Below are positions 2,460 through 48,483 of a DNA stretch of 51,155 nucleotides, one piece after another. Position 1 is the stretch's first letter; each line of letters opens with the position of its first letter. The stretch spans positions 1 to 51,155 of the forward strand of contig JAHHHO010000041.1 in the NCBI GenBank assembly GCA_019359315.1. The letters run 5' to 3'. The DNA comes from Myxacorys californica WJT36-NPBG1 (GTDB lineage: Bacteria; Cyanobacteriota; Cyanobacteriia; Leptolyngbyales; Leptolyngbyaceae). The position numbers and the translations under genes are program-made. Below the pieces are notes generated by a model that was not told the origin of the DNA, searched no databases, and saw only the letters and a program-made list of their open reading frames with translations.

Positions 2460-4769
2460 TCAAGACAAGCTCTCATCCAACAATCGTTGAGGATGCTGAG
2501 TTTCGAGCGGTAGCTGGATAGTAAAGCAGATGGTAGAGTCAGCACTTTTAACCCCAATTGAACCATTTAGGTGTTCAATCAGACGTTTTACCAGTGCTAA
2601 CCCTAGTCCGGTTCCACCATGTTCCCAGCGATCGACACTGGTAACGCGGTAAAACTTCTCAAATAAGTGTGGTAATGCTTCGGGTGGTAATTTCACGCCT
2701 GAGTTGCTGACTTGAATTTGTAGAGTTCTATCGTTTACCTGGGCTGTAACCGTGATCTGCTCATGGGGTGGCGTATATTTGCAGGCATTGTGGAGTAACT
2801 CCATGAGAATGCGTTTAAACCCAGGTAAATCCGTTGTAATGATTGGCAAGTCTGGGGGTAAATGGAGATGCAGACTCTGTTGCTGTTTTTGAGCGCGGGC
2901 TTCAAAGGGTTCTGCGATAAATGGCAGCCAATAATTCAGATCAACGCTTTCTAACTCTAGAGATTGTACCCCCGCTTCCAATCGCTGCAAGTCAAGCAAG
3001 TCATTGATCAAGGTCAGTTCTTGGGTGCATCCCTCTTCGAGGATCTGAAGGTAACGGGTTAAGCGTTCGTCATGAACCTGCTGTTGATTGAGGGTCAACT
3101 GCACCATCCGAATTGCCATTTTGATATTCGCCAGCGGCGATCGCAGTTCATGGGAAACCGTACTGAGAAAGTCATCTTTCAGTTGACTAAGCTCCTCTAA
3201 AGCCCTCACCTGTGTCTGAGCGGCTTGATACAAGTGAGATTGGCGGAGGGCGATCGCCGTTTGGATACTAATTTGTTGTAGCAGGCTGGTTTCCCAGGCC
3301 TGCCACTCGCGAGAGCCACTATTTTGGTAAGTCGCAAGTAATCCCCAGAGCTGACCGTCTAGAAAAATGGGCGCGATCGCATAGGCTCTAACCTGAAACT
3401 GCTCCAATAAATCGATATGACACTGGCTGTACCCAACCGTATAAATATCATTGACGGCAAAGGGTTCATTATTTCGATACCTGCCGCCCTGTCTTTCTTG
3501 CAAATAGGTATCTTCCCATAGAGTCTTAATACCTTCCCCCACCAAAGGTACCCATCCCTCCGCCACTGACTCTGCCACAAAATGACCGCTCCAATCTGGA
3601 GAAAATTGGTAGATAGTAACCCGATCCGCGTGCAGCGTCCGGCGGGTTTCGTTAAGCACTGTTGCCAGAATTTCCTCTAGGTCTAGCGATCGGTGAATAT
3701 TTTGGATAATCACTCGCAGCAGGCGTTCTTGTTCTGCCTGGTGTTGCAGGGCTTGAGTCCGCTCTTGCACCCGTTGTTCGAGTTCCTGGTTGAGTTTTTG
3801 CAGAGCGGCTTCTGCTCGCTGACGTTCTGCTAGCTCCAGTTGGGTCTGTCGATAAAGATCAGCTTGATGGATGGCTAGCGCAACTTGGTCAGCCAGTTGT
3901 TTCAATAACTGGATCTCGTCCTCAGACCACTGTCGGGGCTGATCGCACTGGTGGGCAATCAGCAGTCCCCATAGCCCCGTAGAGTGAAGGATGGGCACGA
4001 CCAAATTTGCTCGCACCTGAAACTGTCTGAGGAAATCGGCATAACAAGGCTCGATGCTGCCATCGTCAATGTCCGAAACCGTCCGGACTTGTCCATGCAC
4101 ATACTGCTCAATGTACGTCGATTGCAAACAGGGATCATAGATGTTTTGTCCTAGAATGGCTTGGCAACTCACATCCACCGACTCTTGCGCAACATAGCCC
4201 CGTTCAGCCGAATTGATCTTAAACAAGAGGACTCGATCGGTCTGCAAGACTTGGCGCACTTCAGTCACGGTCGTGGTCAAAATCTCATTTAGATCGAGCG
4301 ATCGCCGAATGCGTTCCGTCACCATCCTGATCAATTGCTCTCGCGCGGCAGTGCGACGTAATCGAATTTCCGCTTGTGTTCGCTCTGCCCGGATTTGAGC
4401 CTCTCGCACTTCCCGCCGCACAGCCTCTGGCAACCGAGCCAGATTATCTTTCATCAGATAATCATGAGCACCCGCTTTCATCATGGCGACCGCTGCTGCT
4501 TCACCGATCGTGCCCGACACCACAATAAAAGGAAGATCGCGCTGACTTTGCCGGACAACCTCCAGTGCTTCAGGTGCATCGCATCCGGGTAAGCGATAAT
4601 CTGAAATCACCACATCCCAAGGGCGATTAGCCAGGGCAGCACGGAGCGTTTCCGCCGTTTGCACCCGTTCCCAGATTAAGTTAAAATCACCCCGACGCAG
4701 TTCTCGCAGCACGAGCAGAGCGTCATCCTCTGAATCTTCAACTATCAAGACAGTCAAGGGTTCGCGCAT
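2460..4769 (-). CDS. Hybrid sensor kinase: REC - two cyanobacteriochrome-like GAFs - HisKA - HATPase
   Basis: This is a 769-residue soluble sensor. A receiver domain (1-120, phospho-acceptor Asp57 in VVISDYRL) precedes GAF1 (about 150-305), a coiled coil (305-345), GAF2 (345-510), HisKA (His540 in STVSHELRSPL) and an HATPase (N-box Asn661, G-box GTGLGL at 719-724). GAF1 has DPCL at 212-215 and Cys242 exactly 30 residues after Asp212, the spacing of DXCF-type cyanobacteriochromes (DPCF, then the bilin Cys), although Tyr rather than His follows Cys242. GAF2 has Trp418-x-Asp420, Tyr431, and Cys450-His451 at Asp+30, matching red/green types. It is probably a two-colour light sensor, though bilin attachment is inferred. 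The ATG follows the regulator's stop by 3 bp, and its Shine-Dalgarno (GGAGG) lies inside that gene, so translation is coupled. Confidence 0.88.
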   Translation of the reverse strand: MREPLTVLIVEDSEDDALLVLRELRRGDFNLIWERVQTAETLRAALANRPWDVVISDYRLPGCDAPEALEVVRQSQRDLPFIVVSGTIGEAAAVAMMKAGAHDYLMKDNLARLPEAVRREVREAQIRAERTQAEIRLRRTAAREQLIRMVTERIRRSLDLNEILTTTVTEVRQVLQTDRVLLFKINSAERGYVAQESVDVSCQAILGQNIYDPCLQSTYIEQYVHGQVRTVSDIDDGSIEPCYADFLRQFQVRANLVVPILHSTGLWGLLIAHQCDQPRQWSEDEIQLLKQLADQVALAIHQADLYRQTQLELAERQRAEAALQKLNQELEQRVQERTQALQHQAEQERLLRVIIQNIHRSLDLEEILATVLNETRRTLHADRVTIYQFSPDWSGHFVAESVAEGWVPLVGEGIKTLWEDTYLQERQGGRYRNNEPFAVNDIYTVGYSQCHIDLLEQFQVRAYAIAPIFLDGQLWGLLATYQNSGSREWQAWETSLLQQISIQTAIALRQSHLYQAAQTQVRALEELSQLKDDFLSTVSHELRSPLANIKMAIRMVQLTLNQQQVHDERLTRYLQILEEGCTQELTLINDLLDLQRLEAGVQSLELESVDLNYWLPFIAEPFEARAQKQQQSLHLHLPPDLPIITTDLPGFKRILMELLHNACKYTPPHEQITVTAQVNDRTLQIQVSNSGVKLPPEALPHLFEKFYRVTSVDRWEHGGTGLGLALVKRLIEHLNGSIGVKSADSTICFTIQLPLETQHPQRLLDESLS

Positions 4770-4772
4770 GGA

Positions 4773-5195
4773 TCACAACCCTCCAGGTAATGGTTCGTTG
4801 AGGAGTATCCAATACAGCCCCAGTTGGCGCACCGCCTCAGTGAATTGGTCAATCCCAACGGGCTTTCGCACATAGCTATTGGCCCCGAGGCTATAACTCT
4901 CCACGATATCGCAATCTTCACTGGAGGAGGTTAAAACCACTATAGGCAAAAAGCGAGTTTTGTCGCTGGCTCGAATTTGCCGTAAGACTTCTAAGCCATC
5001 AACTTTGGGCAGCTTTAAATCCAGAAGTACTACACTTGGTAGTGCTTCTAGACCAAAAATCAGATTTAAAGCTTCTTCCCCATTTCGAGCCACAAGAATT
5101 TCATTGGCAATGTTGCCACGGCGGAGAGCCCGAATGGTGAGACGTTCATCATCAGGATTATCCTCGACCAGTAAGATGGGACGCGCAGAAGTCAT
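4773..5195 (-). CDS. Rcp1-like single-domain response regulator
   Basis: A 140-residue lone receiver domain with no output domain. It has the acidic pair in [10 protein letters not shown], phospho-acceptor Asp59 ([10 protein letters not shown]), the conserved Thr/Ser (VVLTSSS) and Lys (VRKPV). The DNPDDE start, the LPK after the Asp and the C-terminal helix are typical of the Rcp1 family, which serves cyanobacterial phytochromes as a phosphotransfer partner. The start ATG overlaps the stop of the upstream PAS kinase by 4 bp (ATGA) and the downstream CBCR-like kinase starts 3 bp after its stop, so all three are probably one transcription and translation unit. It is the likely shuttle between the two kinases. 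Confidence 0.92.
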
Positions 5196-8100
5196 AGTTT
5201 AGGTCTTGTCCTGATGGATGGATTGGGTAGTGTGAAGTAAATTGTGGCTCCCTGCTCCACAGCGGCTTCTGCCCAAACACGACCGCCATGCCGATGAATG
5301 CTCCGTTGCACGGTGGCTAAGCCAATGCCCGTACCCGGAAATTCATCTGTGTTGTGCAAGCGTTGAAAGACTCCAAACAGCATGGAGGAATAGGTCATAT
5401 CAAAGCCTGCTCCATCATCGCGGACAAAATAGACAGATTGCCCATCTTGGTTGAGGATGCCAAATTCGATCTGTGCGGAGGAATGATGGCTAGTAAACTT
5501 CCAGGCATTTTGCAATAGATTGCTAATCACAACGCGCATCAAGGTGAGGTCAGCATAAACGATCGCGTCAGGTGCGATCGCGCACTCAACCTGCCGTTCT
5601 GGCTCTGAGGCTTTCAATTCCTGCATCTGCTCTTGAACCAGCGCACTGAGGTTGACAGTCGTATACCGCATTTCAGAGCGCGACACGCGAGAGAGGCGCA
5701 ACAGGTCATCAATTAGCATTCCCATTCGTTGCACGTTACGCCGGATGCGATCGAAGTAGTCTTTGCCCTCGTCATCAATTAGCTCTCCATAGTCTTCTAG
5801 CAATGCTTTGCTGAAGCCGTCGATCGCTCTCAAGGGCGATCGCAAATCGTGAGACACCGAGTAGGCAAAGGCTTCTAACTCGCGGTTAGACGCTTTTAGC
5901 TGCGCCGTGGTTTGCAGGAGTTGTTCTTCGGCTTGTTTGCGATCGGTAATGTCTCGCACCATGCACAGCACCTGCTGCTCTCCGCACATCATCAGCCGGG
6001 CTTCTTCATCTCGGATTTCGCCTTCAATGTCAAGTTGATACTCATACACTTGCAGTTCCTGGGTTTGCAGGGCCTGCTCCACATAATGCATGCGTTCTTT
6101 CGCCCGCTCATAAGGAAGAACATCATAGATATTGATCCCTATCATTTCTGACAACGGTTTGAGCAATTTGATACTTTTGCCGCTGCCGAGGGCATCGAGA
6201 TACGTGCCATCGCGATCAATCCAGATCAGTAAATCAGGAATGGCGCTAATCAAGGCACGATTGGTTGCCTCACTCTGACGTAAAGCGGCTTCAGCTTGTT
6301 TGCGTTCAGTAATATCGAGCACTGTGCCCGTGAGCTGAAGCACTTGCCCTGCGGCATTCAAGCTTGGTTCTCCCTTGGCTTGCACATGTACCAACGTGCC
6401 ATCAGGACGATAAGCGCGGCACTCAAGTTCGTAGGGCTGGGCAGTTGCGATCGCCGTTTCTACCGTTTGTTGGTGCACGTCGCGATCGTCGGGGTGAAAT
6501 AGCTGCTGAATTTCCTCAAAGCTGGGTGGTCCAGCGGATGCATCGCGCCCAAAAATCCGGAACACCTGGTCTGACCAGGTCACCTTTTCGGTGGGCAGAT
6601 CCCATTCCCAACTGCCTAGGTTGCCAATGCGTTGAGCCAGTTTCAAATGGGCATCACTCTTTTGGAGTTGGGCTTCAGCTTGCTTCAGTTTTGTGATGTC
6701 AACATGACAGCCAATCACTCGCAAGGGTTGCCCGGCTGCATCCCAGTCAATCACTTGCCCGACGCAGATGATCCAAATCGTCGATCCATTTTTATGGTGA
6801 TAGCGCACCTCGCTGTAGTAGGGCACTTCCCCACGACTTTGCACATGGCGGTCGAAACACTCCAGCACGGCGGGTAAATCTTCCGCAAAGATCAGGCTTT
6901 GCCAAGTTTCTGGTACATTGGGCAACTCATGATCTTCATAGCCAAACATGCGCTTCAAGCCAGGACTCATATAATTCCAATGGTTAGGAATATTCCAATC
7001 CCAGTATCCTGCCAGGCTGATGTCGAGAAGGGTTTCCAGCAAGGTAAACTCTAGACGCAGTTTCTCGGCCTGTAACCGCGCTGCTTCGGCTTTTTTACGG
7101 TCGGTAATGTCGGTATGGGTGCCCAACATTCGCAGAGGGTTGCCTGCTTCATCCCAGGCAACAATTTTGCCTAGCGAGAGGATCCATTTCCAGTCTCCAT
7201 TACACGTGTGCTGTCGAAATTCCACCGCATAGTCGGAGATTTCACCCTGCACATAGGCGCGATAGATATTGGCAACAGCTTCACTGTCGTCGGGGTGAAG
7301 CCGCTCAATCCATTTGGCATTCGTTTCCTCAAAAGTCGTCGGATCGTAGCCTAGCATAGTGGCATATTCAGGGTTAACGATGGCTTCTCCGGTTTGAATA
7401 TTGAGATCGTAAAGCCCCTGGTTAGCGGCTTTTAAGGCAAGGCGAAGGCGCTCTTCACTGACTCTCAGCGACTCTTGGGTCGCTTTGAGAGCAGTAATTT
7501 CTGTGGCAACACCATCAATGCGGCAGGGTTCCCCGTTTGTGTCATAAATGAGCTGACACTGGTCTTGTAACCAGCGGATTTGACCATCCGCCGCAATAAT
7601 GCGATATTCCAGAGTTGTGCTGCCGGTTTGTTGCCGTTCGTCCATTCCAGCCGTCACTACTGCTTGATCGTAGGGGTGGATCATCTCAAACCAGAGGTTA
7701 GAGTTTGCTAAAAACTCCGATATTGAACGACCATAGATTCCTTCTACTGTCGGACTAAGATAGAGCAGTTCTGAAGTCTTTACATCGCGAGACCAGACAA
7801 TGCCTTTAACAGAATTGAGAATGCTTTCAACCCGCTGTTCCTGCTCCCGTAGGGCAGCTTCGACAGCTTTGCGCTCAGTAATATCTCTAGAGATGCAGAG
7901 GATCGACTCCATCGTCTGCTGATCAGACAACTCAGGAGCGATCGCCATTTCAAACGAACGAATTCCCTTAAGGGTGGGTGCTGTAAACTCAATCACCTGT
8001 TTTTGTCCGGTTTTCAAAAGCGCTGTCGCAGCGGCCTCCCAAGTGGTGACCATGGCCTCATCCATACCTAGGTCGCGACAGGTTTTGCCTAAAAAGACTT

Positions 8101-8689
8101 CTGTGGAAATCCCAGTAATTTCGGTGAGGACTGGACTGACGTAGAGATGGCGCAGTTGCAAATCAAACCGTTCAATGATGTCGGGAGAATTTTCTACGAG
8201 GGCTTGGTATCGCTGTTGTGACTCAACTAGAGCGGCTTCAGTAGCTTTGCGATCAGCTTCATTGCATTTATGCTCACTGATTTCTAATTCCACGTTGGCA
8301 GCTTTTAACTGGCGGCTGCTGGATAGGGTCAATGCTTGGGGAATTGCAGAAATCAACGCTGAAGCTGTCATTAAGGAGATGGCAGCGGTAACAGACTTCA
8401 GTGCCCCGGAAGCCCAATAGAGCGGGTGCCAGAGCGTCCAAATCTCTACGGCGTGCGTCAGCCCCGAGGTAACAATAAAAACCCCGAACAGTTGGAGAGC
8501 GGAGGAGTAGGGTAAGTCTCGACGTTGACGCACAAAATAGATTAGCGCCAAGAAAATAGAAAAGCAGGCTAAAGCTGTCAGTCCATCAGATAACGCATGG
8601 AGCCACACCAGCCCAGGTTCCCAGAGATAGCAATGCTCATGAGGATTAACTGTCAAATTACCAAGATTGCTGTGAAGTACTGTTAACAT
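5192..8689 (-). CDS. Membrane histidine kinase: ethylene-receptor-like domain, six PAS domains, HisKA, HATPase
   Basis: I chose ATG 8689 (GGGGAG six bases upstream) over GTG 8710, giving 1165 residues. Residues about 20-125 form three membrane helices like the ethylene-binding domain of plant ETR1 and cyanobacterial SynEtr1: [35 protein letters not shown]. Asp35 and His79 match ETR1 Asp25 and His69, but the copper ligand Cys65 is replaced by Ser75 (codon TCG). Six PAS domains follow (about 158-275, 280-403, 410-535, 545-668, 675-798, 805-920). They are joined by typical DITxRK-type PAC ends. HisKA has His947 ([17 protein letters not shown], the subtype of phytochrome Cph1) and the HATPase has Asn1061 (NLLQNAWKF). 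It is first in a three-gene operon. The signal is unknown; ethylene binding is doubtful without the Cys. Confidence 0.9.
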
Positions 8690-9155
8690 GCTCTGCTCCC
8701 CAATCACCACTGTCAGATCATTGCTGGCGCTGCAAATGCGTTCTGTTGCTTGCTAATTAACAGATTGCCCAATCGGAAACTCTTCAGATGATATGCAACT
8801 AGTAAGACAGAATGATTTCACAAAATAAAGATTGACCCCATGGAGCAACGTTAAGGTATTGCAAGAAGTTGCTGATATGAAGATGAGTTACGCTCCACAG
8901 CTAATTGAGTATCAAGTCCATATTAAGGGTTTGAAGTTGATACAGTGGTTGTGGATACAATATTTATGGATAGAAGCGATCGCACTCTTAAATCAAGTCA
9001 ATCTGATTCAACCAAATCGCTTGCTAATTGAATCATGGCTCTATGGTTTCTGCGGAGTTGAGCCTCGCGCGAAGCGTTCAAATAGAAGCCTTGGCAGCCT
9101 ATCAAACTCGTTTTGGGCGTAATGGTTGAATACTTAAAATTTAAAATAGATGTAA
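8690..9155. other. Intergenic region upstream of the kinase operon
   Basis: I see no supported gene here. An open frame at 8832-9122 (plus) starts in AT-rich sequence with no ribosome site and has no recognisable domain. The operon promoter should lie in 8690-8850, but I cannot fix a convincing -35/-10 pair. Near 9060-9080 there is a GCGAAGCG-containing fragment of the sort repeated elsewhere between genes in this window. Confidence 0.4.
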
Positions 9156-11304: not shown

Positions 11305-14300
11305 CTAGCTGCCTAGTGGCTGGTGGATCGGTAGCTCAACAACAAATTCAGCACCCATACCTGGTGTCGAGTGGCAGTAGATCTTACCATTGTGCTTTTC
11401 TGTCACGATTTGGTAGCTAATCGAAAGCCCCAGCCCTGTTCCTTTTCCAGTAATTTTTGTGGTAAAGAACGGGTCAAACAACTTAGACAGAACGCTTTCA
11501 TCGATGCCCAATCCATTGTCTGAAACCCGAATCGACACCCAATCTTGATCGATAACGGATGTGGAAATTCGGATTTCGCCAGGAGACGCTGCAAGGGTGC
11601 TCGGTGGTTGCTTTGCATTCCGTTCTTCAACTGCATGGATTGCATTCGACAGCAAGTTCATGAAGACCTGATTCAGTTGGCCTGGGTAACATTCCACTGT
11701 CGGGAGCGCGTCGTAGTCTTTGATCACTTGAATCGTCGGACTATCGGCGGTAGGTTTCAAGCGATGCTGCAAAATCATCAACGTACTATCAATCCCCTCG
11801 TGAATGTCAACCGACTTAAACTCGGCTTCATCCAACCGCGAGAAGTTTCGTAAAGACATGACAATATCGCGAATCCGCTCTGTCCCTACGGTCATCGATT
11901 GAAACAGTTTGGGCAGGTCTTCGATAGTAAAGTCTAAGTCCGCATTCTGCCAATGCTGTTGAATCTGCGGTGCCGGATCAGAGTAATGCTGTCGATATAG
12001 ATTTACACAATGCAGTAACTCGTGGATATACTGCTCAGCATGTTCTAAGTTGCCATAAATAAAATTAACTGGATTGTTAATTTCGTGGGCAATTCCTGCG
12101 ACTAATTGCCCCAAACTTGCCATCTTTTCGGCATGAATGATTTGGAGTTGAGCAGCGCGGAGTTCTCTAAGGGCTTGGGCCAGTTGATCTGCCTCTTCGC
12201 GCGTTTGACCGAGCAAACTCGACTGGTGGAAGAGACTGGCTTGAAGCAGTGCCACGTTGATTTGGGCAGCCACCTGGGTGACAAATTCTAGTTCGGTTTC
12301 TTCCCACTCGCGGGTTTTGCTGCATTGGTGAATGCATAGGAGCCCCCAGAGGGTGTCGCCTTCCATCAGGGGAACGGTGATTTGTGCCTTGACCTGAAAC
12401 CACTCAATCACGTCGAAATACGGAAGCTTGGCTCCAAGCTTAGTCGTATCAGAAATAACTTGTGCTGTCCTTTGAGAAAACTGGCTCATATGCTGCTGAC
12501 CAAAGCGATCGTGCACCTTTGTATTGAGAGCAGAATCCAAGTTAGGCAGCACGTCTTCTGCAATGAATTCCCCACTGCAATATCCAGAATCCGGCTCAAA
12601 GCGAAGAATCCCGACGCGATCGACGTCTAGCACTCGCCGGACTTCTGCGAGCGCTGGCTTGACGATTGGCTCCCAATTAAACGACTCCCGAATCTTGACG
12701 ACTAAATCAAACAAGATCCGGCGTTGTTCAGCAGCTTGGTGCAGTTCATCGGCGCGAATTTGGGTTTGCATTAACAAATCAGAACTTTGCAGGGCAACCC
12801 CGAGTTGACTCGCGACTTGTGCTAAAAATTCCACTTCCACAGCGTCCCAGTGGCGAGTTCCAGAATGCTGATAGGCGGCTAGAAGTCCCCAAAGATTGCG
12901 CCCTACGAAAATGGGCGTGAGGGCATAGGCGCGGATCTTAAATTGCTCTAGAATGTCAAGATGGCAGCGCGAGTGACCAACTTGGTAAATGTTGCTGACG
13001 GCAAAAGATTCATTATTTCGATAGCGTCCCCCTTTTGTTTCCTGTAAATGAGTGTCTTGCCAGACCAAGTTTTCTCCAAACGGATTGATACTGTCCCACT
13101 GGGGTTCGACCATGCCAAAATTGCTGATAAATTCTCCGCTCCAATCGTCATTAAAGCGGTAGACGGCAATCCGCTCAACACGCAACAGGTTGCAAACCTC
13201 TTGGCAAGTCATTTTCAAGATCAAATTAATGTCGAGCGAGGAGCGAATTTTTCCGACGACTTCGGTGAGAGCGCGTTGGCGGGCGATCGCATCTTGCAAC
13301 GCGATTGCCTGTTGTCTTGACTGTTCCAAATTCTCGGCTTGCTGAATCGCAACGCCTAATTGTGCTCCAACTTGTTCTAGAAACTCAACCTCGAACGCTT
13401 GCCACTGACGGGGGCTAGAGTGCTGATAGGCGGCGACGAGTCCCCAAAGTTTGGTTCCGGTAAAAATGGGAGCAAGGACATAGGCACGAATCTTGAATTG
13501 CTCCAGAATGTCAAGATGGCAGCGTGTGTGCCCGGCTTGATAAATGTCTACAACGGCAAAACTTTCGTTGTTGCGGTAGCGCCCTCCCTGAGTTTCTTGT
13601 AAGTGCGTATCTTCCCAGGCCAAGTTTTTACCGAAGGGATTCGTCCGATCCCAAAGGGGTTCTACGATGCCAAACTGGCTGACAAACTCACCGCTCCAGT
13701 CTTCGTTAAAGCGATACACTGCTGCCCGCTCTAGCTTGAGGAGTTTGCAGAGTTCTTGGCAAGCGGTATCGAGGATGATGTGAGTGTCTACGGAGGAGCG
13801 AATATTGCCGACAACTTGAGTCAGGGCACGTTGTCGAGAGATTGCATCTTGCAATTCCACGTTGCGTTGTTCTGCCTGCTTTAAGGTTTCTGCCTGCTGC
13901 ATTGCGACGCCTAAATGGTTGCCAGCCTGGGCAAGAAAAGTCACTTCATGGGGATGCCATTGCCGAGGTGCGGAGTGCTGATAGGCGGCTAACAGCCCCC
14001 ACAGTTTCGTGCCAACAAAAATAGGCGCGATCGCATACGCTTGGATCTGAAATTGCTCTAGTACTTCAACATGACAATGAGCGTGCCCTGCCTCATAAAT
14101 GTCTGCCACTGCGAATGGTTCGTTTTTGCGATAGCGCCCACCTTCGGTTTCTTGGAGATAGGAGTCCTGCCATACCAAATCTTTCCCAAAGGCGCTTAAA
14201 GCGTCCCAAGGTGGTTCGGCAAACCCAAATTGATTGATGAAACTGCCGCTCCAATCTGCGTTGAACTGGTAAATTGCAACTCGCTCAATTTGCAGTTGAC

Positions 14301-14436
14301 GACAAATATCTTGGCAGGATGTTGAACAAAGTGACTCTATCGGTACAGATGCACGAATCCTTGCCAAAATTCTTGCCAGAATTTTCTGATACTGAACAGA
14401 GAGTCGCAGTTGATTTTGGCATTCCTCAATGGTCAT
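11305..14436 (-). CDS. Sensor histidine kinase with three tandem cyanobacteriochrome-like GAF domains
   Basis: I start this at ATG 14436 (MTIEECQN); the open frame reaches 14604 but the first 56 residues look like translated intergenic sequence. The 1043-residue protein has four GAF domains. GAF1-3 each carry Trp-x-Asp, Gly-Gly-Arg-Tyr at Asp+8 to +11, and Cys-His at Asp+30: Asp91/Cys121, Asp276/Cys306 and Asp461/Cys491. This is the pattern of red/green cyanobacteriochromes, which bind phycocyanobilin at that Cys. GAF4 (about 575-735) has Tyr-Phe at the Cys position and cannot bind a bilin that way. A coiled coil leads to HisKA (His784 in AGIAHEINNPVNFIYGN) and an HATPase (Asn931; GTGLGLS). 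No membrane segment is present. GAF2 and GAF3 are nearly copies of each other. Bilin binding is inferred. Confidence 0.88.
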   Translation of the reverse strand: MTIEECQNQLRLSVQYQKILARILARIRASVPIESLCSTSCQDICRQLQIERVAIYQFNADWSGSFINQFGFAEPPWDALSAFGKDLVWQDSYLQETEGGRYRKNEPFAVADIYEAGHAHCHVEVLEQFQIQAYAIAPIFVGTKLWGLLAAYQHSAPRQWHPHEVTFLAQAGNHLGVAMQQAETLKQAEQRNVELQDAISRQRALTQVVGNIRSSVDTHIILDTACQELCKLLKLERAAVYRFNEDWSGEFVSQFGIVEPLWDRTNPFGKNLAWEDTHLQETQGGRYRNNESFAVVDIYQAGHTRCHLDILEQFKIRAYVLAPIFTGTKLWGLVAAYQHSSPRQWQAFEVEFLEQVGAQLGVAIQQAENLEQSRQQAIALQDAIARQRALTEVVGKIRSSLDINLILKMTCQEVCNLLRVERIAVYRFNDDWSGEFISNFGMVEPQWDSINPFGENLVWQDTHLQETKGGRYRNNESFAVSNIYQVGHSRCHLDILEQFKIRAYALTPIFVGRNLWGLLAAYQHSGTRHWDAVEVEFLAQVASQLGVALQSSDLLMQTQIRADELHQAAEQRRILFDLVVKIRESFNWEPIVKPALAEVRRVLDVDRVGILRFEPDSGYCSGEFIAEDVLPNLDSALNTKVHDRFGQQHMSQFSQRTAQVISDTTKLGAKLPYFDVIEWFQVKAQITVPLMEGDTLWGLLCIHQCSKTREWEETELEFVTQVAAQINVALLQASLFHQSSLLGQTREEADQLAQALRELRAAQLQIIHAEKMASLGQLVAGIAHEINNPVNFIYGNLEHAEQYIHELLHCVNLYRQHYSDPAPQIQQHWQNADLDFTIEDLPKLFQSMTVGTERIRDIVMSLRNFSRLDEAEFKSVDIHEGIDSTLMILQHRLKPTADSPTIQVIKDYDALPTVECYPGQLNQVFMNLLSNAIHAVEERNAKQPPSTLAASPGEIRISTSVIDQDWVSIRVSDNGLGIDESVLSKLFDPFFTTKITGKGTGLGLSISYQIVTEKHNGKIYCHSTPGMGAEFVVELPIHQPLGS

Positions 14437-15238
14437 AGGAGTTATGGAGGCACGATAAGACTCCCCATAAAATTCCCTTTTATATCTCCAATGCCTCAAA
14501 CAGAAATCAGCTACCGCTCCTCTTCGCTCGCCGCAGAAACTTCTCTTAACAAAGAACCTTGATAAGGTCGGTGCAAGCGGGCTGTTAGCTTGCACTCTAC
14601 CCAACCAACTTACTACTTCTTACTAAAAGCTCCCATTGAGCAGTTGCAGTCGCATTACTGACAAAAGAGAACAACGCTCCTTCGGAGCTTGCGAAGCGAT
14701 CGTTCTATCCCCATGTCGCCACAATACAGATCCGGTTCCATCACTCCACGCAACAACAGTTTTTGTTCTTGAACAAAGAACTTTAATAACCTATGTTTAT
14801 TCAGTAAGAACAAAAGTTTCGATTTATGTTATCAATGGGCTAATTTTTGTTCTTACTGTTCGAGCTTTTGTTCTTACTGCCCGAGCTTTTGTTCTTACTG
14901 TTTGAGCTTTTGTTCTTACTGCTCGAACTTTTGTAATTTTTCCAGCACAATTACCGAGTAAACTGACATGTCTTCATTCAAGTAATGCAGAAAGATGCGG
15001 TTTCTACGATCCCTTAGGTGAGTGTTTAAAGCTTGTGACCGCTAGAGCCAAAGGCAAAGTTTTCTTAAGAAGGTAAGTTCTATCTTTAGTCGCAATCCTG
15101 CGGAGCTTGCGAAGCAATTGCTCTCCTCAATTCCTGCCATTAGAGCGATGGAAGGAGCAACATCACTTGGCATTATGGCGCTATTCATCACTATGTTTCC
15201 TGAATAACTGGTTGATAGCGATCGCTTCACCTCTTCAT
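14437..15238. other. Long intergenic region with repeats
   Basis: Between the divergent kinase and ATP-grasp genes I find no supported gene. It holds the 21-bp tandem array (14845-14928), an inverted copy of its core (CAGTAAGAACAAAAG near 14799-14814), and two copies of a GGAGCTTGCGAAGC sequence (about 14685 and 15100) that recurs between genes in this window. Open frames here consist of translated repeat. Confidence 0.5.
14845..14928 (+). repeat. 21-bp tandem repeat, four units
   Basis: Four units of 21 bp start at 14845, 14866, 14887 and 14908, each TTTTGTTCTTACTG followed by a variable 7-bp end (TTCGAGC, CCCGAGC, TTTGAGC, CTCGAAC). A partial fifth follows, and an inverted core lies about 40 bp upstream. 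The plus frame is closed by TGA in unit three, so this is not coding on that strand. Confidence 0.85.
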
Positions 15239-46302: not shown

Positions 46303-48483
46303 TTGAGAGCGGCAAAAATTCTGATTGTAGAAGACGAACGGGTCGTCGCTTGGCATGTGCAAGAAGCTCTGTACAAGCTCGGACATCACGTGGTCGGCAT
46401 TGCAACGACAGCAAAAGAGGCATTTCAGTATGCGTTAGACCAGCCGCCTGATCTGGTCTTGATGGATATCTGTCTTCAAGGAAGCAGCCTGGACGGCGTA
46501 TCTGCCGCCGAATATCTTTATCTGCAACTTGATGTCCCGGTCGTTTACTTAACCGCCCATGCTGACCAACACACTCTCCGCCGCGCAACTGAAACTTCAC
46601 CCTTTGGCTATCTGGTCAAACCCTTTCAGGAAGTCGATCTGCATTCTACAATTCAAATCGCGCTGCGGCGACATCAGCTAGAGCAAGCCCTTAAAGCGGT
46701 ACAGCAATGGTATGCAACGACCTTAATTAGTATTGGAGATGCCACGATCGCAACCGATGTCGATGGCTTTGTTGCCTTTCTAAATCCCACTGCCGAAATT
46801 CTGACGGGATGGACGCAGGAGCAGGCGTTAGGAGCCTTTGCATCTCAGGTGCTAGACCTCGTGGATGAAGACACGGGAGCGGCGATCGACAATCCAATTT
46901 TGGCAGCATTGTGTCAAGGCGATACAATTACGTTGCCTAGCCGAGCCCTGCTGCGATCGCGGGATGGGTCTGTTCATCCCGTTGGCGATAGTGCCTCTCC
47001 GATTCGCAACCGTAAAGGTGAGATTATTGGGGGAGTAATGGTGTTTCAAGATATCAGCGATCGCCGATGTCAAGAGCAGACCCTGCAAAAGCAGAATCAG
47101 GTTCTAGAACAGTCTCAAGACCAGCTAACCGCTCAACTCTGGGAGCAAACTGTGCAACTTCAGCAAGCCATTGCCTGTACTCAACTACTGAAGCGAGTGT
47201 TAGAGCGGTTTGCATCTCAGAGCGCTGAAGAGTGCGCTGAAGAGCCATCCTTTAACTCCGTGTCAACATGGGTGAGCCGTAATTCGGTGCTGCACCTGCT
47301 GCTGCAAGAGGTGGGGCAGGTGTTGGACGTGGAGTATTGCTGGGTAGCATTGCAGGATGCTGATCAGCGCTTTGTCACTATTGCTTACGAGCATCGTCCT
47401 ACTGATAGAGGATGTAAGCGCTCTGCGATCGGAGAACAGATCTATTTAGAAGACTTTTCACGCTTCTATCTCCGGCTAATGCAGCATCAATTTTGGATCA
47501 ATCCATCGCCTGAGGTTTTACCATCACTGTACCAATCGTTTCTCGACGCCAAGTCTCAACTGATCGTGTGTCCGATTCAAGATGACCAGCGCGTGATTGG
47601 TGAAATTGGCATCGTGATGCGCCATTTGTCGACTCAGTCCCCGCTGCAAGGAGAGTTGATTGCTCAAACGGTCAACCAAGCCGCGATCGCGCTCTACCAG
47701 ACCCAACGACACCAAGCGGCGCAAGCTCAGGTGAGAGAACTGCAACGCCTCAACGTTCTGAAAGATGAGTTTCTCCAAGCCCTATCGCGAGAGTTGAGGA
47801 CGCCCCTCACGAATATGCGGATGGCCGTAGAAATGGTGCAGCGCATTGCTCAAATGTTGAAAACAAGCAGTCTTCAGTCCATGCATCCAGACGCAACAGA
47901 GGCGTTGTGGGGTAAGTTCGACCGCTATTTGCAGATTTTGCAGCAAGAGTGGCAGGACGAATGTGAACTCGTCAATAATTTGCTTGATTTTCAAAGCACT
48001 GCCGCGTTAGCGCAAGCGCTGCCCAGCCACTCGCTCTACCTACAACTCTGGCTACCGGAAGTCGTGAATCGCTTTCAGGAGGAGGCGAAACGCAAGCAAC
48101 AGTTTCTAAACTCCCGGATTGCCGATGACTTGCCTGCGATCGCGGTGCACTCGCCAACGCTCGATCGCCTTTTGACGGAGTTGCTCAAGAACGCATGTCA
48201 ATTCACGCCACCAGAGCATGTGATTCAGGTAGCAGCGCAGGCTCACGGCGGGCAGCTAGAACTATCGGTGAGCAACACCGGAACCGAACTGTCGAGCGCT
48301 GAGCAGATGCAGATTTTCGAGCCGTTCTACCGCAGCGCCAACGAAGGATGGAGCGGCTTCGGATTAGGCTTAGCCTTAGTCAAGCGGCTCGCGATCGCGC
48401 TTAAGGGTCAAATCCGAGTAGAGAGCGAATCAAATCAGACTCGATTTGTCCTGACGCTGCCGATCACCCAGGATCTTGCATAA
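46303..48483 (+). CDS. REC-PAS-GAF-like kinase homologue lacking the phospho-acceptor His
   Basis: A 726-residue protein with a receiver (Asp55 in LVLMDICLQG), PAS (about 135-255), coiled coil, GAF-like region (about 325-465), HisKA-like dimerisation domain and HATPase (Asn630, GLGLALVKRL). In the dimerisation motif the invariant His is Arg496 (FLQALSRELRTPLTNM; codon CGA), although flanking residues are intact and the ATPase motifs look functional. It therefore cannot autophosphorylate at the normal place; it may phosphorylate another kinase in trans, act as a phosphatase or be a regulator. Start TTG 46303: no ATG fits, since a stop is in frame just upstream. It closely follows the HisKA_2 kinase gene, whose product may phosphorylate Asp55. 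Confidence 0.88.
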   Translation: MRAAKILIVEDERVVAWHVQEALYKLGHHVVGIATTAKEAFQYALDQPPDLVLMDICLQGSSLDGVSAAEYLYLQLDVPVVYLTAHADQHTLRRATETSPFGYLVKPFQEVDLHSTIQIALRRHQLEQALKAVQQWYATTLISIGDATIATDVDGFVAFLNPTAEILTGWTQEQALGAFASQVLDLVDEDTGAAIDNPILAALCQGDTITLPSRALLRSRDGSVHPVGDSASPIRNRKGEIIGGVMVFQDISDRRCQEQTLQKQNQVLEQSQDQLTAQLWEQTVQLQQAIACTQLLKRVLERFASQSAEECAEEPSFNSVSTWVSRNSVLHLLLQEVGQVLDVEYCWVALQDADQRFVTIAYEHRPTDRGCKRSAIGEQIYLEDFSRFYLRLMQHQFWINPSPEVLPSLYQSFLDAKSQLIVCPIQDDQRVIGEIGIVMRHLSTQSPLQGELIAQTVNQAAIALYQTQRHQAAQAQVRELQRLNVLKDEFLQALSRELRTPLTNMRMAVEMVQRIAQMLKTSSLQSMHPDATEALWGKFDRYLQILQQEWQDECELVNNLLDFQSTAALAQALPSHSLYLQLWLPEVVNRFQEEAKRKQQFLNSRIADDLPAIAVHSPTLDRLLTELLKNACQFTPPEHVIQVAAQAHGGQLELSVSNTGTELSSAEQMQIFEPFYRSANEGWSGFGLGLALVKRLAIALKGQIRVESESNQTRFVLTLPITQDLA

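Follow-up and report, generated by a model that had tools for sequence, protein, structure and literature searches.

DXCF-type GAFs, red/green (XRG) GAFs, a kinase that joins a receiver (REC) to a cyanobacteriochrome GAF (PPHK), Rcp1-type response regulators, and ETR1-like kinases are all known individually. Among these, PPHK, the phosphorylation-responsive photosensitive histidine kinase, already unites receiver and light sensor in a single protein, and its kinase activity is said, from the 2019 work of Shin et al., to be set by phosphorylation and light with the logic OR. The protein was crystallized in a BeF3-bound state (title of entry 6oaq), and its solved part holds one GAF lacking a second Cys (VEDQYF). 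According to the accessible part of PMC11480761, this multidomain kinase comes from Leptolyngbya JSC-1, and its Pg state lies at 562 nm; the DXCF and WXDXXL motifs were interpreted with the accessible part of PMC11284453. In the blue/green DXCF GAF of TePixJ (PDB 3VV4), the second Cys lies in the DPC motif and the bilin Cys lies downstream. A further described system is SynEtr1 of Synechocystis, also named UirS and Slr1212. It joins an ethylene-binding domain to a photoreceptor and acts as an ethylene and UV-A receptor, and ethylene binding in ETR1 requires seven residues, as stated in the part of PMC6682694 that was available.

The locus described here combines these elements in a new way, with a receiver, a DXCF-type sensor, and an XRG-type sensor in one conserved kinase that belongs to a gene cluster, and among the matches listed from open-licence papers, none on such a kinase or its cluster was found. 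The window, which is the whole stretch of 51,155 nucleotides of Myxacorys californica that was analyzed, encodes on its minus strand the 769-residue kinase P0001 (positions 2460..4769), whose REC-GAF1-GAF2-HisKA-HATPase architecture was assigned from the open reading frame, motifs, Pfam, a tree, and an alignment. Pfam placed the receiver at residues 7-117 (4419..4751, minus strand), two GAF stretches (the best at residues 159-300), HisKA at 531-600, and HATPase_c at 647-756. The receiver has Asp57 as the expected phospho-acceptor, judged by the invariant residues. GAF1 (residues 159-300; 3870..4295, minus strand) was assigned from Pfam, motifs, and the tree, GAF2 (3246..3683, minus strand) from motifs, PDB matches, and the tree, and the histidine kinase core with His540 (2502..3179, minus strand) from Pfam and the alignment. 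The initial annotation had named D212-P-C214-L215 and C242-Y243 in GAF1 and W418-E-D420, G428-G-R-Y431, and C450-H451 in GAF2, with an Asp-to-Cys spacing of 30 in each domain and a receiver N-terminal to both; all of these residues were recovered in the translation, the spacing is 30 in both cases (242-212 and 450-420), and the receiver precedes the two GAFs in Pfam.

The residues E11, D12, D57, S85, T87, and K107, which we take to be those with the usual roles in receivers, as well as H540 and N661 of the kinase core, are the same in the window as in five orthologues. The PPHK chain (Leptolyngbya sp. JSC-1; PDB 6OAP, 6OAQ, and 6OB8), which is likewise a histidine kinase with an N-terminal receiver and a cyanobacteriochrome GAF, aligned in 6OAP to residues 6-309 of P0001 with REC and GAF1 as one stretch (200.7 bits). 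A predicted structure of residues 1-310 reached a mean pLDDT of 82.1 (65-70 for the other four models) and a pTM of 0.54, and its top three structural matches were PPHK 6oaq, 6oap, and 6ob8 (Z 21.8-21.5, rmsd 6.6, 293-298 aligned), with 36% identity between PPHK and REC-GAF1 of P0001 in the structural alignment. The PPHK entries were tied in Z with phytochrome GAFs, which cover the model from about residue 140 on, and they alone span both REC and GAF1 among the best 50 structural matches listed. The large rmsd fits a domain orientation that may be free or badly predicted. P0001 has the PPHK-type layout, a REC joined to a cyanobacteriochrome GAF in a colinear unit and followed by a histidine kinase, and it differs from PPHK in that GAF1 has a Cys at the DXCF position and is followed by an XRG-type GAF. 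The earlier proposal that light and phosphate signals could meet in one kinase gains support at the sequence level, as the catalytic residues of receiver and kinase are intact and REC plus GAF1 aligns with PPHK as one piece. The genome of PPHK itself was not found, 0 of the 388 genomes of the class matching at E <= 1e-75, and this zero is not informative on absence.

The lineage of the two GAFs was examined in a tree. We collected 80 distinct GAF rows, near full length by a profile of eight cyanobacteriochrome GAFs, and added 6 solved references; 13 of the resulting 86 rows were dropped by eye after alignment and before tree building, 11 of them without the bilin Cys and two with a Cys there (L034 at 713, L047 at 33). 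In the tree of the remaining 73 rows, which include the six solved cyanobacteriochromes and are mostly cyanobacteriochrome-like, neither GAF fell among ordinary GAFs: GAF2 belongs to the XRG clade (100/99) and GAF1 to the half with the DXCF and NpR3784 representatives (98/94). Other proteins of the sample also mix color classes, since L030 and L046 each combine a DXC-type GAF with one of the XRG type, and L037 has two DHCF-type GAFs and one GAF in the XRG clade.

GAF2 carries the WXDXXL motif as W418-E-D420-T-Y-L together with C450-H451, and it has no second Cys. Its closest solved structures are AnPixJg2 (5zoh/3w2z) and NpR6012g4 (6bhn), with E values of 3.7e-60 to 8.2e-60. The XRG clade of 24 rows consists of GAF2 and its orthologues with AnPixJg2 (3W2Z), NpR6012g4 (6BHN), Slr1393g3 (5DFX), and others, and these three references share WEDTYL, GGRY, and CH with GAF2; within the clade, GAF2 and its relatives form a subclade of their own (98/97 with L020), apart from the three references.

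GAF1 carries the DXCF motif as D212-P-C214-L215 together with C242, with Leu replacing Phe. It grouped with its seven orthologues and the related L018 at 100/100, outside XRG and inside the clade that contains TePixJ, PPHK, and the NpR3784 derivative. When GAF1 was forced together with TePixJ or with PPHK and the NpR3784 derivative, the AU test gave p values of 0.258 and 0.091, respectively, so that neither placement was rejected, and the TePixJ branch is long. The best PDB match of GAF1 was PPHK 6oap (E 3.5e-42), followed by the NpR3784-derived miRFP670nano, with TePixJ 3vv4 lower (E 2e-26); by sequence score, GAF1 is therefore nearer to PPHK, whose GAF lacks the second Cys. GAF1 resembles TePixJ in the position of both Cys residues and in its half of the tree, and it differs in having Leu for Phe and Tyr for His; the output differs as well, since the solved TePixJ chains are named methyl-accepting chemotaxis protein. 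Motifs and tree positions make it very probable that P0001 has, behind its phosphate-receiving domain, one light sensor of the blue type and one of the red/green type.

The orthologues of P0001 were used to weigh these motifs. At least eight proteins have the REC-GAF1-GAF2-HK architecture (the window, G013, G017, G022, G057, G026, L049, and L050); this is a lower bound, as the scan that gave L049 and L050 covered the best 80 matches, and L048 and L051 were left out of the count because they are apparently the G017 and G026 loci again, with the same identities. G013, G017, G022, and G057 are 73-77% identical to P0001 over nearly the full length, and G026, in which a PAS is inserted after the REC, is 71% identical over residues 131-756. 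The two named orthologues are L049 of Cyanobacteria bacterium J069, which begins at the contig edge, and L050 of Leptolyngbya sp. FACHB-8. Residues were counted in eight proteins (the window, L010, L011, L012, L013, L014, L049, and L050). In GAF1, C214 and the bilin Cys were kept in all eight orthologues counted, window included, as were the Trp and Cys-His in GAF2 (8/8), which argues that the motifs of P0001 are not chance. Position 212 is Glu in one of the eight (L014), where the Arg of GGRY is Gln. Among the five close orthologues, GAF1 is less conserved than GAF2 (65-76% versus 72-82%).

The two substitutions in GAF1 had been singled out in the initial annotation as departures from the canon, and Leu215 and Tyr243 are indeed present; that they are unusual did not hold, since residue 215 is Leu in 4/8 and Phe in 4/8 of the orthologues counted, and residue 243 is Tyr in 3/8 and His in 5/8. 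Both substitutions recur in other GAFs: Leu stands at the DXCF Phe position in 8 of the 36 DXC-type tree rows (4 of these being the window and three orthologues), and Tyr follows the bilin Cys in 9 of the 36 (3 being the window and two orthologues). An identical IYDPCL/CY is found in another protein of the window's own genome (L002/L169), and insert-Cys GAFs also have Leu at the DXCF Phe position, according to the part of PMC5240096 that was available. The two substitutions are thus drift within a single orthologous family. As far as the accessible part of PMC6336887 goes, the Tyr after the bilin Cys in miRFP670nano is an engineered, selected substitution (H87Y) that stacks on biliverdin. Since Tyr243 is the same substitution, GAF1 may carry a different bilin or be a poor photoswitch.

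Beyond the orthologues, three longer homologues (L044, L046, and L047) contain a related GAF1-GAF2-HK unit with no matching REC, and the GAF2 Trp and Cys-His were kept in 3/3. The second Cys of GAF1 was lost in L044 and L047 and not in L046, and the bilin Cys was also lost in L044; these losses mean that the chemistry of GAF1 is not essential everywhere. A fourth longer homologue (L018/L045) retains GAF1 and shows no aligned XRG motif at GAF2. Within the order, 4 of 42 genomes had a REC plus GAF1 match at E <= 1e-75, or 5 of 42 with G026, in which the insert splits the match; a further match at this threshold (G028) spans residues 128-310 only, and the other genome of the window's genus had no REC plus GAF1 match at E <= 1e-75. 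The distribution of the P0001-type kinase within the order is patchy.

P0001 is the last gene of a unit in which an ETR1-like PAS kinase and an Rcp1-like regulator precede it. The regulator P0002 (140 residues; 4773..5195, minus strand), assigned from Pfam and PDB matches, lies 3 bases upstream of P0001 and matches the Rcp-type phytochrome response regulators RcpB 1k66, RcpA 1k68, and Rcp1 1i3c, although it scores higher with the other bacterial regulators 5brj and 5ic5. P0003 (1172 residues; 5192..8710, minus strand), which by Pfam contains an ETR1-like domain, PAS repeats, and a histidine kinase, overlaps P0002 by 4 bases. The same three genes were found in the same order and strand in 5/5 other kinase-bearing genomes whose flanks were examined (L039-L043). 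The gap between the first and second genes is -4 to +3 bases in the window, L039, L041, and L042 and 350 and 594 bases in L040 and L043, and that between the second and third genes is -4 to +6 bases in all seven units (window, L039-L043, and L050). Leptolyngbya sp. FACHB-8 (L050) has the regulator and a PAS kinase beside the orthologous kinase, and a domain search of this locus found no ETR1_N in the unit; the contig of J069 (L049) starts inside the third gene. In four genomes, the flanks of the receiver-less homologues L044-L047 gave no match like P0002 or like the P0001 receiver, which suggests that the regulator goes with the receiver and not with the GAFs.

In the surroundings, the neighbor P0004 has one GAF without a bilin Cys adjoining three intact GAFs, and a scan for promoters and terminators remained at chance level (7 promoter-like versus 7.1 expected; 7 terminator-like versus 7.5 expected). 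The genome of the window contains a bilin reductase gene (Fe_bilin_red, 252.7 bits). No description of the three-gene unit was found by title or abstract opening among the matches listed from open-licence papers; the accessible part of PMC9953108 gives numbers of two-component gene triads for thermophilic relatives, and the unit may be among these.

The ETR1_N domain of P0003 (8324..8611, minus strand; Pfam and alignment) scored 117.9 bits against a Pfam cut-off of 27. The seven ethylene-binding sites, which we take to be Asp25, Tyr32, Ile35, Pro36, Ile62, Cys65, and His69, with Cys65 as the copper ligand, read D-C-I-F-I-S-H in the window, where 4/7 are kept and three are replaced (Tyr32>Cys, Pro36>Phe, and Cys65>Ser). 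Because 3/7 residues are lost, Cys65 among them, ethylene sensing is unlikely in the window, and a working ethylene sensor was rejected. The sites read D-C-M-L-I-Y-H in L043, D-Y-I-V-I-C-H in L039, and N-Y-I-P-V-C-H in L042, and they are unchanged in L040 and L041 (2/6 units). Cys65 was lost in 2/6 units (the window and L043), and in both genomes the light kinase was kept. ETR1_N occurs in 36 of the 42 genomes of the order, and all seven residues were kept in 30/30 of the best-per-genome matches listed, a comparison that is biased as these were picked by score. The window's genome has three copies, the third of which (L164) is also changed at the seven sites. Other ETR1_N domains are intact in L084, L165, L166, and L167 and changed in L047 and L168. 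Intact ETR1_N is fused to cyanobacteriochrome-like GAFs in the same order of bacteria (two GAFs in L165, one each in L166 and L167), an arrangement that favors a functional connection of the ethylene and light senses but is no proof of it. Compared with SynEtr1, the window has its ethylene-like and light domains on separate proteins of one cluster, and its ETR1-like domain has lost key residues.

Both receiver and regulator were also found in other settings. Among the matches listed, several phyla have regulators >60% identical to P0002 that are followed by a protein with a similar receiver at its start. A like receiver (71.8-80% identical) is found on PAS-GGDEF-EAL proteins in L052, L053, L054, L057, and L064 and is joined to PAS-HK-REC in L069 and L104. 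Only L053 of the five PAS-GGDEF-EAL loci has a P0002-like regulator just upstream (the upstream sequence searched was about 0.6 kb in L064, about 1.3 kb in L052, about 3.8 kb in L054, and 10 kb in L057), indicating that receiver and regulator are not always together. In 7/7 of the loci L069, L087, L096, L104, L106, L109, and L117, the receiver-first protein is preceded by a regulator 57-62% identical to P0002 and, before that, by a short protein whose GAF is of the DHCF type; in L104, this short protein is GAF-HisKA-HATPase by Pfam. Coleofasciculus sp. S288 (L084) has three genes in a row: one for an ETR1_N protein that keeps all seven residues, one for a regulator (51%), and one for a receiver-first protein that is cut by the contig end. 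In view of these varied settings, the unit is an exchangeable chassis, of which the P0001 cluster is one cyanobacterial filling.

We propose, with a probability of roughly 0.7, that P0001 is a dual-color cyanobacteriochrome kinase of the PPHK design, with a blue/green GAF1, a red/green GAF2, a receiver as input, and a regulator as output. GAF1 would bind a phycocyanobilin-derived bilin through Cys242, and Cys214 would add reversibly to C10 of the bilin, so that the dark state would be of the blue type and the photoproduct of the green type. GAF2 would bind phycocyanobilin through Cys450 and switch between red and green. The N-terminal receiver would be phosphorylated on Asp57. Its phosphorylation state and the light states of both GAFs would jointly determine how active the common kinase core (His540) is, and this core would pass phosphate to the adjacent Rcp1-like regulator P0002. 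The upstream ETR1-like/PAS kinase P0003 would be the likely phosphate source for the receiver, the regulator, or both.

Alternatively, GAF1 could bind a bilin without a blue/green cycle, Leu215 and Tyr243 making it a weak or differently tuned sensor (for example, one that holds biliverdin or one with a red-type state and no C10 adduct), so that only GAF2 would report light. The nearest solved GAF, that of PPHK, without a second Cys, and the biliverdin-stacking H87Y of miRFP670nano (PMC6336887, accessible part) would fit such a sensor; we nevertheless regard it as unlikely, since every orthologue counted keeps C214, even where the motifs are plain DPCF and CH, and since natural CY occurs in a quarter of the DXC-type rows, three of these nine rows being the window and two orthologues. 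That both GAFs are non-photochemical, with motifs as relics in a plain REC-GAF-GAF kinase, appears highly improbable: the neighbor P0004 does have a GAF without a bilin Cys beside three intact ones, but the tree placement, the bilin Cys of both GAFs kept in 8/8 orthologues counted, and the similarity of GAF2 to bilin proteins of solved structure (E 3.7e-60 to 8.2e-60) all argue for photosensors.

The dual-color reading also takes the receiver as an input, whereas it might be a phosphate sink or a dimer module, with the upstream ETR1-like kinase as an unrelated neighbor. The wide gaps between the first and second genes in L040 and L043, the FACHB-8 unit in which ETR1_N gave no match, and the single regulator just upstream among the five PAS-GGDEF-EAL proteins with a like receiver are consistent with such a role, which we consider somewhat unlikely, because the second and third genes abut in 7/7 units, because the receiver recurs on different outputs, as expected of a conserved docking partner, and because PPHK was crystallized with BeF3 bound. 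On a more tentative note, it is possible, though less likely than not, that the conserved unit links an ETR1-like membrane kinase, an Rcp1-type regulator, and a two-color kinase in a single phosphorelay, as a split SynEtr1 whose gas input has been retired or re-tasked here and in one other genome.

If the dual-color reading is true, a single molecule would compute on three inputs, from its receiver and from two photosensors that belong to different color classes. PPHK provides a solved template, and the three-input rule would be accessible via single mutants (D57, C242, and C450). The cluster further represents a natural series, in which the ethylene-receptor-like input is intact, partly changed, without the copper ligand, or absent, and the light kinase is conserved.

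Comparison of the residues at the seven ETR1 positions for ethylene binding revealed that the ETR1_N domain of P0003 (window 8324-8611), the first gene of the three-gene unit, has lost three of the seven, among them the copper-ligand Cys65, which is replaced by Ser; at L043, one of the loci with the orthologous unit, this position is occupied by Tyr. L165 and L084 are among the loci whose ETR1_N domains kept all seven residues. The domain at L165 (609-4082) is fused in a single protein to two cyanobacteriochrome-like GAFs. The one in Coleofasciculus sp. S288 (L084, 2267-7004) belongs to a protein standing in a row with a regulator and a receiver-first protein.

On the far side of P0003, at a distance of 2.6 kb, lies P0004 (window 11305-14604), a second putative photoreceptor kinase with four GAFs. 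As the GAF row alignment showed, three of these are of the XRG type, with WQD/WED and CH motifs, and the fourth is devoid of the bilin Cys. Elsewhere in the genome, a CBS-GAF-PAS-PAS-HK-REC protein on contig C95 (L169, 4383-7574; aligned as L002) carries GAF motifs, IYDPCL and CY, identical to those of GAF1 in the kinase P0001. A further receiver-first kinase was assigned by eye at window 46303-48483; its GAF match is weak (24.3 bits), and its C-terminal half was judged by eye to be similar to that of P0001.

Receivers 72-80% identical to that of P0001 are borne by PAS-GGDEF-EAL proteins of other cyanobacteria (L052, L053, L054, L057, and L064), whose domains predict a P0001-like input with a cyclic-di-GMP output. 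At L104 (8024-12271), an Rcp-type regulator stands between a short DHCF-type GAF protein and a receiver-first protein, all three in a row, and L069, L087, L096, L106, L109, and L117 resemble it. This arrangement looks like a photoreceptor placed upstream of a PPHK-like relay.
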